From contig MNZA01000162.1 in the NCBI GenBank assembly GCA_001873375.1, positions 5,822-40,281 of the forward strand: a stretch of DNA of 34,460 bases, written 5' to 3'. The translations under genes were made by a program, and so were the position numbers. Shown piece by piece: positions 1,361-29,777 of the stretch (position 1 is its first letter; the number at the start of each line of letters is the position of its first letter). The stretch comes from Oscillatoriales cyanobacterium CG2_30_44_21. GTDB taxonomy: Bacteria > Cyanobacteriota > Cyanobacteriia > Pseudanabaenales > Pseudanabaenaceae. The notes under the pieces were generated by a model. It was given only the letters and a program-made list of their open reading frames with translations, searched no databases and was not told where the DNA came from.

Positions 1361-1365
1361 AATTA

Positions 1366-1402
1366 CCAAACAAAGAAACGGCGTAGCCGTTTCTTTGTTT
1401 GG
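1366..1402. repeat. Hairpin, GTA loop (GGC-GTA-GCC type)
   Basis: The stem is a perfect 17 bp around GTA, with arm CCAAACAAAGAAACGGC. It resembles the hairpins at 3225, 27397, 29707 and 32098 in having an AAAGAAAYGGC arm. It lies 38 bases past the pyrG stop. A piece at about 1415-1436 (GGTTTTCAATTTACAAAAGTG) resembles one side of the repeats at 27336 and 29646. Confidence 0.85.
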
Positions 1403-1439
1403 GACAACTGGCTTTGGTTTTCAATTTACAAAAGTGATA

Positions 1440-3193: not shown

Positions 3194-3224
3194 TTTCTAT
3201 ACAGTGCTTTGTGATTATTTATAC

Positions 3225-3259
3225 CAAATAAAGAAATGGCATAGCCATTTCTTTATTTG
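3225..3259. repeat. Hairpin, ATA loop (GGC-ATA-GCC type)
   Basis: The stem is a perfect 16 bp, CAAATAAAGAAATGGC, around ATA. It lies between the divergent genes pyrG and cysE, so it is not at a gene end here. Confidence 0.85.
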
Positions 3260-3280
3260 AAAATCTTTACCTAATTGAAA

Positions 3281-21222: not shown

Positions 21223-21250
21223 TTACCAATTCACAAAATTGTAGTCACTA
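21223..21250 (+). repeat. Partial copy of the CAATTCACAAAA repeat at the acs start
   Basis: CCAATTCACAAAATTGTAGTCAC ends 1 base before the acs ATG and matches the left half and loop of the hairpins at 27336 and 29646, so the acs leader has incorporated half of a repeat. The right half is missing. Confidence 0.6.
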
Positions 21251-27106: not shown

Positions 27107-27157
27107 GGTTAGAAATTTTAAAGAGTTGTAAGTAGCTCAACATAATTAAAACCCAAG

Positions 27158-27205
27158 ACCAAACGTTGTTCCGCCCGCTACGCGGGCGGAACAACGTTTT
27201 TGGTT
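27158..27205. repeat. Hairpin, TAC loop, CCGCCCGC core
   Basis: A perfect 18-bp inner stem (27161-27178 and 27182-27199) surrounds TAC, with further pairing after a two-base bulge. The core GTTGTTCCGCCCGC is shared with 21156. TTATGCCTA follows at about 27204, an inverted version of the flank motif seen before the 21156 hairpin. Confidence 0.88.
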
Positions 27206-27335
27206 ATGCCTAGCTGCTTAATAATACTTTGCCATAAAGCGTGGCTCTGACGCGCTTTCAAATATACAGCCGTAGTAACCCAAGAGGCTAGTGGGTTTTA
27301 GGTTCTAACAAAACTGACTTTTCCAGAAATTATAC

Positions 27336-27371
27336 CAATTCACAAAAGTGTAGTCACACTTTTGTGAATTG
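27336..27371. repeat. CAATTCACAAAAGTGT hairpin, AGTC loop
   Basis: A perfect 16-bp stem surrounds AGTC. The copy at 29646-29681 has identical arms but loop GACT, the reverse complement, while the flanks on both sides are in the same orientation. It lacks the GC core, so it is a second repeat type. Confidence 0.9.
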
Positions 27372-27377
27372 AAAACT

Positions 27378-27429
27378 AAACCCAGTATGGGTTTTAAAAC
27401 AAAGAAATGGCATAGCCATCTCTTTGTTT
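27378..27429. repeat. Two more inverted repeats in the array
   Basis: AAACCCA-GTA-TGGGTTT (27378-27394) is followed by a 15-bp stem around ATA (27397-27429, AAACAAAGAAATGGC) with one A-C mismatch (27406/27420). The same order recurs at 29688-29739. Confidence 0.8.
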
Positions 27430-27432
27430 GGT

Positions 27433-27462
27433 ATTAGAGGCGCTTCGCACCGCACCTCTAAT
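27433..27462. repeat. Decayed hairpin with damaged core
   Basis: The outer arms ATTAGAGG and CCTCTAAT pair. The centre, CGCTTCGCACCGCA, has lost perfect symmetry. It lies 22 bases past the stop of the kinase gene. Confidence 0.55.
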
Positions 27463-27484
27463 TTCTAAGTGGGAACGGAGTAGC

Positions 27485-29575
27485 TTATTTTCTTTCAGGC
27501 ACGCGCCAGACTTTTACCTTGCCATCCAGACTGCCACTAATTAAAAATTTGCCATCTTTGCTGAAGTCTACAGAAGATACTCCATTCTCATGGGCTGACA
27601 AAACTTGTAATAGGCTCTTAGCATTGACATCCCAGACTCGAATAGTCTTGTCAGTACTGCCACTTGCCAGCAAGGAATTATCTTCGCTGAAGGCGACTGT
27701 GTGAACTTGGTTGGTATGTCCTGTCAAGACTTCCACAAACTGCCCTGTTTCTCCATTCCAGAGCCGTACTGTGCTGTCTTCCATCGCCGCTGCGATCAGT
27801 TTGCCATCCTTGGTATAAACAATGGAACGAACGGGAGTACCTTTCTCTACTATGGTTTTAATGGGCTTACCTGTTTCCACATTCCATAGGCGAATAGCTC
27901 CATTTTTAGCTGCACTAACCAAGGTCTTCCCGTCAGGCGTAAAGGAGGCATCATAAACATAGGACTTTTCTTGAAATGTTCTAATCTGTTTTCCAGTTTT
28001 GACATCCCAGATTCTAATCGTGCGATCGCCACTGCAACTGACGACGGTTTGACCATCGGGGCTAAATATACTTGTGTAGATACGTTCCTGCTGCCCGCTT
28101 AAATTATGAATAATTTTGCCTGAAGCGACATCCCAAATGATCACTTCACCGTTATCACTGCCACTGACTAGCTTGGTTCCATCGGGACTGAAATAGATGT
28201 CATAAACTCGACCTTTATGTCCTTGGAGAACTCTTGGGCTAGTGGTAGCCTCAAAGTCCCATAACTCGATACTTCTATTGGAGCTAGCCGCCGCCAATAG
28301 CTTACTATCAGGGCTGATCGCAATTCCGTAGATAATGTCATTACTTTCAGAATTACTAACTAAATCTCTAACAAAGCTAATGTCAAAGCTGGAGGTTGGC
28401 GCGGGAGTGAGATTAAGTTCGGAAGAATTTTCTTGACGAGGGGATTTAGGAGTAGGACTGGAAAATAAAAATACTGAAGTGACCGCGATCGCGGCAATTG
28501 TAACCACACCTAAGCCCAAGTGCCAAGGCTGAAGGTATTGCTTCAAAAATGACTGAGTGGGTTGAGGCGCTTGAGCATTGGTGCTTTCGTCTTTACTTTT
28601 CGCGCTGATAGGAATATTAGGAATTTCTTCAAGGAGCGAAGTGAGGCTGCGTTCCTGTGGGTTTACAAAATTATCTGAGTTCGCGCCACTATTAATTAAA
28701 GTTGGCAAACTATGGTTGACGTCGGAAGTGGGATAGCGATCGCAAAATTCTCTGATGGCAGTACTGGCGGCGATCGCCGTTCCATAACGTTGCCGAAAGT
28801 CGAACTTGACCATCTGCGACAAGATATCAGCAAACTCTGGATAAACCTTTGGGGCGTGCTGCCGCCACAGTATTTCCAGATTGTCGTCCTTACCCAAGTG
28901 ACTCGGGTTAATTCCTGTAAGCGCCTGAATGCCAATCATGCCGATCGCATAGATATCGCTGGCAAATTTAGGTTCGCCATGTGCCTGCTCGCTAGGCATA
29001 TAGCCAGGAGTGCCAATGCCGACCGTATAGTTGGAGGCGATCGGTTGATCGATGACGATCGTGCTAGAAGTGGCGATTTCTTTGACCACGCCAAAATCAA
29101 TTAAAAACAGTTGTCCATCGCGCCGCCGAATAATATTTTCAGGCTTAATATCCCGATGGATGACATTGTTTTGATGCACAAAATCCAGCACCAGCAGCAG
29201 GCTTTGCAACAGGCTCGCCACGGTGAACTGTTCCCATATTTTTCCCCGCAGCAGTTCGTGACCCAGATCTTTACCATCTATAAATTCTTGAACTAAATAA
29301 AATTCTGATAATTCTTCAAAGTGGGCAAATAACTGAGGGATTTGCGGATGGGTACCCAAACGGTATAAAACCTGAGCTTCCGTTTCAAATAATCGCCGCG
29401 AGATCTGCAAAACACTGGCTTCTTGGATGCGCGGACTTAGTCTTTTGATCACCCGTTTGGGGCGATCGGGCAAATGCAAATCTTGGGAAAGATAGGTTTC
29501 GCCAAAGCCACCTCCTCCCAATCGGTCGATGACTTGATAATGACCACCGATTATTTGCCCTGTTGTCAGACTCAT
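27485..29575 (-). CDS. Serine/threonine protein kinase with C-terminal WD40 repeats
   Basis: This membrane-anchored Hanks-type kinase probably phosphorylates Ser/Thr on unknown targets. From the chosen start it has 696 residues. The kinase domain at about 12-280 has the Gly loop LGGGGFGETY (19-28), Lys44 in VIKR, HRDIKPEN (140-147), DFG (160-162) and GTPGYMPSEQ. A Pro/Ser-rich linker and one transmembrane segment (352-372, LGLGVVTIAAIAVTSVFLF) follow. Seven WD40 repeats fill 405-696, each ending in WD or WN (e.g. GDRTIRIWDVKTG), which makes one full propeller outside the membrane. I chose the ATG at 29575 because GGTGG lies 6 bases upstream; a GTG at 29584 is in frame. This architecture is common in cyanobacteria. 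Confidence 0.93.
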   Translation of the reverse strand: MSLTTGQIIGGHYQVIDRLGGGGFGETYLSQDLHLPDRPKRVIKRLSPRIQEASVLQISRRLFETEAQVLYRLGTHPQIPQLFAHFEELSEFYLVQEFIDGKDLGHELLRGKIWEQFTVASLLQSLLLVLDFVHQNNVIHRDIKPENIIRRRDGQLFLIDFGVVKEIATSSTIVIDQPIASNYTVGIGTPGYMPSEQAHGEPKFASDIYAIGMIGIQALTGINPSHLGKDDNLEILWRQHAPKVYPEFADILSQMVKFDFRQRYGTAIAASTAIREFCDRYPTSDVNHSLPTLINSGANSDNFVNPQERSLTSLLEEIPNIPISAKSKDESTNAQAPQPTQSFLKQYLQPWHLGLGVVTIAAIAVTSVFLFSSPTPKSPRQENSSELNLTPAPTSSFDISFVRDLVSNSESNDIIYGIAISPDSKLLAAASSNRSIELWDFEATTSPRVLQGHKGRVYDIYFSPDGTKLVSGSDNGEVIIWDVASGKIIHNLSGQQERIYTSIFSPDGQTVVSCSGDRTIRIWDVKTGKQIRTFQEKSYVYDASFTPDGKTLVSAAKNGAIRLWNVETGKPIKTIVEKGTPVRSIVYTKDGKLIAAAMEDSTVRLWNGETGQFVEVLTGHTNQVHTVAFSEDNSLLASGSTDKTIRVWDVNAKSLLQVLSAHENGVSSVDFSKDGKFLISGSLDGKVKVWRVPERK

Positions 29576-29645
29576 AAGTTCCACCTAAGTTGCCATCCAT
29601 AAATTAACACTTACTCCTTTCCCACTCAAGGAACCGCTTTTATAC

Positions 29646-29681
29646 CAATTCACAAAAGTGTGACTACACTTTTGTGAATTG
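29646..29681. repeat. CAATTCACAAAAGTGT hairpin, GACT loop
   Basis: A perfect 16-bp stem, second copy of the repeat at 27336 with the central loop inverted. The flanks (TATACC before, AAAACCAAACCCAGTA after) match those of the first copy. Confidence 0.9.
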
Positions 29682-29706
29682 AAAACCAAACCCAGTAAGG
29701 GTTTTT

Positions 29707-29739
29707 AAATAAATAAATGGCGTAGCCATTTATTTATTT
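29707..29739. repeat. Hairpin, GTA loop
   Basis: A perfect 15-bp stem, AAATAAATAAATGGC, surrounds GTA. The preceding AAACCCAGTAAGGGTTT has one mismatch relative to the copy at 27378. Confidence 0.88.
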
Positions 29740-29740
29740 G

Positions 29741-29777
29741 CTATTAGATGGTGCGGCGAAGCCGCACCATCTAATAG
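29741..29777. repeat. Hairpin, GAA loop
   Basis: A perfect 17-bp stem, CTATTAGATGGTGCGGC, surrounds GAA, directly after the previous hairpin. Confidence 0.9.

Follow-up and report, generated by a model that had tools for sequence, protein, structure and literature searches.

How can the loop of a hairpin come to lie in opposite orientations between flanks that keep the same orientation? The question is posed by two hairpins in the stretch of DNA analyzed here, hereafter the window: 34,460 nt of contig MNZA01000162.1, from a genome of the genus Pseudanabaena (G000). The two have an identical 16-bp stem and loops that are exact reverse complements—one reads CAATTCACAAAAGTGT-AGTC-ACACTTTTGTGAATTG, the other CAATTCACAAAAGTGT-GACT-ACACTTTTGTGAATTG—and their flanks run the same way (TTATAC on the 5′ side, AAAAC[T/C]AAACCCAGTA on the 3′ side), just as a sequence-only reading of the window had described them. 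The stem is matched six times in the window at three or fewer mismatches, against 0.57 matches expected, and six was never reached in shuffles. The two loci are alike over 109 bp, and each hairpin thus belongs to a longer repeat of 101 bp (TACCAATTC...TTTGGTA or a near variant) that has a TTA duplication at either side. Both copies have the same orientation, and hairpin 1 makes up the left half of each (Table 1). The AGTC-oriented half copy mentioned in the same reading is present, and the related piece that it had placed at 1415-1436 belongs to a longer reverse-strand fragment of this element in which hairpin 1 is truncated. The two full copies flank a protein kinase/WD40 gene (27485-29584), while a UbiB/ABC1-type kinase gene and clpP-clpX lie outside them.

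Table 1. Copies and fragments of the 101-bp element in the window, with the hairpins that they carry
Feature	Position	Strand	Description
MITE-like element, copy 1	27333-27433	+	101 bp, TACC...GGTA; TTA at 27330-27332 and 27434-27436; 109-nt direct repeat
Hairpin 1, copy 1	27336-27371	+	Perfect 16-bp stem; loop AGTC at 27352-27355
Hairpin 2, copy 1	27397-27429	+	AAACAAAGAAATGGC-ATA-GCCATCTCTTTGTTT, one mismatch
MITE-like element, copy 2	29643-29743	+	101 bp; TTA at 29640-29642 and 29744-29746
Hairpin 1, copy 2	29646-29681	+	16-bp stem of copy 1; loop GACT at 29662-29665, inverted relative to copy 1
Hairpin 2, copy 2	29707-29739	+	15-bp stem; loop GTA
Truncated MITE copy	21224-21249	+	Left end, left arm (CAATTCACAAAATTGT), and loop AGTC; abuts ATG at 21250
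Truncated MITE copy	1364-1437	-	Right-end hairpin 1366-1402, loop GTA, and one hairpin-1 arm; adjoins CTP synthase gene end
Lone right-end hairpin fragment	3223-3260	-	Loop ATA

The 101-bp repeat is a MITE-like mobile repeat. It has the ends TACCAA/TTGGTA, a short target duplication, and no ORF, and its palindrome occurs 91 times (three or fewer mismatches) in the 3.5-Mb genome, 63 of these occurrences being anchored by both element flanks. Among the 34 copies with intact ends, 101 bp is the modal length (26 copies) and equal 3-bp TNA duplications border 22, compared with 9.7 in shuffled data (maximum 18 in 10,000 shuffles); the duplicated triplets are TAA, TTA, and rarely TCA or GTA. The element is spread over 21 of the 26 Pseudanabaena genomes searched. 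Its length, its non-coding sequence, its end repeats, its TNA duplications, and a copy number in the tens or more are all shared with known MITEs. It differs from them in that a parent transposase did not turn up: between the end pairs of the loci examined, a search for an autonomous element recovered no transposase, only host-type genes, and two long end-to-end intervals considered as candidates were rejected for the MOSC-type and RimM-like proteins, judged by eye, that they contain. It differs also in that the element is here a mere carrier of hairpins whose flipping is independent of the MITE. REP-type palindromic repeats (e.g., PMC3733652) are alike in being short palindromes dispersed between genes; the property at issue here is the flipping of the loop.

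Scored against the element's own right flank, hairpin 1 could be oriented in 74 copies, with the loop GACT in 37 and AGTC in 21; the loop of hairpin 2 is likewise found both ways in other copies (GTA 21, TAC 16). AGTC shares none of its four positions with GACT, yet its 21 copies stand against a total of six one-step variants of GACT (GACG 2, GATT 2, GGCT 1, AACT 1), and we rejected stepwise point mutation as its source. Other species have reverse-complement loop pairs of their own—GACA (16) and TGTC (10) in G001, GACG and CGTC among others—and the flips are therefore of independent origin. On a copy tree built without either loop, and weak at ~60 columns, orientation changes 13 times for hairpin 1 (14.3 when shuffled) and 14 times for hairpin 2 (12.3 when shuffled); loop orientation looks random relative to this tree. 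Opposite loops occur even in near-identical copies (L015/L031 and L008/L032), the latter two of which share a rare CATCTCTTT variant.

The stem bases around the loop delimit what is inverted. An arm marker moves with the loop, one copy (L029) reading AATTGT-AGTC-ACACTT and another (L027) AAGTGT-GACT-ACAATT; the arm change is on opposite sides, which indicates that inner arm bases invert together with the loop. At the outermost pair of the stem, the A that often replaces the right-hand base is found on the right in either loop orientation, and the inversion must therefore end inside the stem. The center of the hairpin—the loop, sometimes with inner arm bases—has been inverted many times between fixed outer arms. 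In G001, a dominant and apparently young subfamily has CGAAAG in the left arm only, with the loop GACA; the copy at C194:9715 is a fully flipped form of this subfamily, with TGTC and with CTTTCG on the right.

Orthologous hairpins allow such events to be observed directly. The alignment of G006 (the MAG M53BS1SP1A06MG) with G007 covers 309 kb at 99.36% identity (0.64% divergence) and contains 59 orthologous hairpins with a stem of at least 13 bp and a loop of 3-7 nt. The loop is exactly inverted in 24 (41%, interval 28-54%), unchanged in 32, and otherwise different in three. At this divergence, three independent substitutions that happened to reverse a loop exactly would be expected at about 3e-7 per hairpin. 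For eight of the 24 flipped hairpins, the stem has no other copy in 340 kb, and the flip can be explained without conversion from elsewhere. Long hairpins in general flip in these genomes, whatever their sequence and also where no second copy occurs in 340 kb. These exact inversions between near-identical genomes, together with the abundance of both orientations among copies and strains, bear out the inversion of the inner palindrome relative to its flanks that the sequence-only reading had proposed. It had suggested that both orientations be sought in other copies and strains, where they are now found (37 GACT and 21 AGTC, with further pairs in other species), and it had named as contrary to its proposal a single orientation elsewhere combined with point changes here, whereas AGTC outnumbers the one-step neighbors of GACT by 21 to 6.

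Flipping depends on stem length, not on stem sequence. None of 27 hairpins with stems of 8-12 bp was inverted, and at stems of 2-5 bp the frequency was about 1 in 10,000; among 3-nt loops alone, 23 of 51 flipped on long stems as against none of nine on short ones. The threshold is not absolute, since inversions with 7- and 11-bp arms also occur. The flipped hairpins have unrelated stems, with no border sequence of the kind specific to a recombinase. Hairpins of repeated families flip more often than unique ones (16/26 vs 8/33, p = 0.007; loci L335-L384). Over the same loci in G006 and G007, flipped stems seem to have a higher G+C content next to the loop (0.80 vs 0.69).

Among the ungapped clusters of at least three substitutions that separate G006 from G007, 31 of 94 are exact inversions centered on a hairpin; four of the 31 span 7, 9, 11, or 13 bp and include arm mismatches, as where TTGCTTTGCCC has become GGGCAAAGCAA in an 18-bp arm. 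When clusters of at least two substitutions are taken (n = 180), the 31 exact inversions are joined by four asymmetric candidates, each explicable by one reverse-complement copy of nearby sequence. In one cluster the loop is inverted and a mismatched arm has been corrected as well (TCGCTTCA to GCGTGAAG, or aaaagtgTCGCTTCAcgccactttt to aaaagtgGCGTGAAGcgccactttt); another cluster would fit loop inversion plus arm correction.

Flips recur in other genome pairs. P. biceps PCC 7429, an isolate (G001), is 95.7% identical to G008, and intergenic DNA is much rearranged by repeats between the two; of 10 comparable long hairpins, two are clean flips and some others combine a flip with substitution. The same MITE insertion, with ~180 bp of identical flank, has hairpin 2 as GTA in G001 (L202) and as TAC in G008 (L313); the 245-bp alignment of the two has four substitutions, of which the flip explains three. 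In another orthologous pair (L206/L306), the hairpin-1 loops TGTC and GGCA differ by a flip and one substitution. The window genome and its nearest relative, G012, are 84-90% identical in the genes tried and have hardly any insertions in common; their comparison yielded no orthologous MITEs that differ in loop orientation. Copy 1 itself is absent from this relative, in which the interval corresponding to 27132-27492 of the window (361 bp) measures 102 bp (G012:C16). Outside the genus, the sole flip is an orthologous change from TAG to CTA in a palindrome with a 15-bp stem in a Hormoscilla pair (L286/L295); a longer comparison of that pair, with 64 kb aligned, contained zero scorable hairpins with stems of at least 13 bp. 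The Hormoscilla palindrome, AGAAACCCGGTTTTTnnnAAAAACCGGGTTTCT, is common, with 64 copies in one genome and 83 in the other, and has many loops. Fifty kb compared between E. coli K-12 and BL21 held a single hairpin with a stem of at least 13 bp, and it was unchanged (n = 1).

We consider it probable that the hairpin center is inverted by strand switching at the palindrome during DNA synthesis, with no dedicated recombinase. A replication fork or a repair synthesis would stall at the palindrome, and the nascent strand would anneal to the complementary arm of the other strand and copy the loop backwards, along with whatever mismatches the inner arms contain, until it switched back in the second arm. 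The sequence between the switch points would emerge reverse-complemented, with the stem sequence and the outer flanks intact, and a switch point falling inside a mismatch would correct that arm to match the other. The MITE would only distribute a good substrate throughout the genome, with neither a recombinase nor a recognition sequence involved. The strongest competitor, possible but on balance unlikely, is that the palindrome extrudes as a cruciform whose arms exchange strands, by Holliday junction-like resolution or short-homology recombination, and so conservatively invert the segment between them. Most events are clean inversions of a whole segment that carry arm mismatches along, and the strong dependence on arm length (0/27 at 8-12 bp, 24/59 at 13 bp or more) also speaks for such an exchange; papers on small plastid inversions call the same products flip-flop recombination at stem-loops. 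At perfect hairpins, conservative arm exchange gives the same product as switching. The usual minimum length for RecA-type exchange exceeds the 13-20 bp of the arms seen here, and inversion with correction of one arm would require an extra step. Strand switching is favored over cruciform exchange, but only the arm corrections that accompany loop inversion, in one or two cases, lean that way; simple switching does not predict the higher flip rate of repeated as compared with unique hairpin families.

That same excess, and the repeat nature of the element, would suit a history in which two old subfamilies, AGTC and GACT, are exchanged by gene conversion or re-insertion without any inversion in situ. 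We regard this as very improbable: orientation does not follow the copy tree, near-identical copies differ, unique hairpins flip, and flips occur at orthologous sites with unchanged flanks. For hairpins in general, the orthologous flips in unique hairpins largely refute it. Because the orientation calls rest on genome assemblies, artefact must also be weighed; a de Bruijn assembly with k shorter than the stem cannot distinguish the loop orientations, random resolution would yield ~50% flips, which is near the proportion seen, and several of the genomes are drafts, G006 of the key pair being a MAG. Such ambiguity requires k no greater than the stem plus one, however, and stems of 14-19 bp account for 17 of the 24 flips, while the smallest assembler k in common use is about 21. 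No step appears at 20 bp (17/38 at 13-19 bp, 7/21 at 20 bp or more), and flips are also seen when one member of the pair is the isolate genome PCC 7429; artefact is accordingly just as improbable an account. Least credible of all, to the point that we give it almost no weight, is a dedicated invertase acting as in phase-variable switches. It would account for inversion between inverted repeats that is frequent and reversible; the inverted hairpins, though, are without a common stem sequence, and the inverted segment is usually 3-5 bp and gene-free, which is too short for the core site of any known invertase.

Loop inversion itself is a kind of event that is already known. Minute or small inversions of hairpin loops have been described in chloroplasts (Kelchner & Wendel, 1996; Kim & Lee, 2005; cited in PMC2903610, PMC6824564, and PMC12928735), and a survey of Laureae recorded 11 sites among 20 plastomes (PMC6824564). 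As in plastids, the loop is exactly reverse-complemented between unchanged arms, recurrently and with homoplasy, mostly in non-coding DNA and without sequence specificity, and the plastid inversions occur within species. The Pseudanabaena events show exact reversal at orthologous sites, recurrence with poor phylogenetic signal, and a need for a stem. They differ in setting, a free-living cyanobacterial chromosome that lies outside the plastid set; in number, MITEs and other palindromic repeats having distributed dozens to hundreds of hairpins; and in pace, with ~40% of long hairpins differing at 0.64% divergence. Loop inversions in rRNA genes, bacterial ones included, have been attributed to template switching, typically with 4-nt loops; Monttinen and Loytynoja (2022) inferred 69 on rRNA trees, with selection for RNA structure (PMC8794818). 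The patterns are the same, loop inversion alone or with a compensatory change, whereas the present hairpins are mostly dispersed repeats, whose inversions are observed at orthologous sites themselves, occur at a far higher rate, and take in inner-arm mismatches as well. Among open-licence papers, we found no report of genome-wide or equally fast loop inversion in a bacterial chromosome. The novelty lies in how fast the loops flip, in the reach across the whole genome, and in the host being a bacterium.

Provided that flips are reversible and neutral (neutrality of loop orientation is probable), the 41% of hairpins flipped would imply ~0.84 events each, ~130-fold the substitution distance per site, an estimate drawn mostly from one genome pair (G006/G007) of which one member is a MAG. 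We tentatively suggest, as a reading that is more doubtful than the strand switching itself, that long Pseudanabaena hairpins flip between two states near equilibrium, ~130 times faster per hairpin than substitution per site, and that they may do so through a lineage-specific trait of replication or repair that tolerates palindromes and switches strands at them. Loss of SbcCD was considered as the reason for palindrome tolerance and rejected, SbcD being found in all four genomes searched. Were this suggestion true, loop orientation would, in a living bacterium, be readable as a fast clock of template switching, and these genomes would offer a free-living model for plastid minute inversions. 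Should the rate hold, three-base loop flips would make up a large share of all multi-base differences between close strains, as the 31 of 94 clusters indicate; taken for substitutions, they would make divergence look greater than it is and misguide phylogeny at a fine scale. Flips also offer a direct assay of how bacteria handle palindromes, by strand switching or by cruciform exchange, a question left open for plastids; the mechanism becomes testable in a cyanobacterium that can be cultured and whose genome naturally contains many substrates.

Several smaller observations concern the hairpins and elements themselves. Perfect hairpins with a stem of at least 13 bp and a loop of 3-4 nt number 18 in the 34 kb of the window, or 0.52 per kb; G006 has 0.17 per kb, and a pair of E. 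coli segments of 50 kb each has 0.02 per kb. In four copies (L078, L081, G012:C47:1941, and G012:C19:42563), hairpin 1 ends in GAATTGGTAT, not GAATTGAAAAC, and the left end appears to have been mirrored into a near-perfect palindrome. Finally, the ATG of an acetyl-CoA synthetase-like gene directly follows the AGTC-oriented half copy in the window, which probably supplies the leader of that gene.
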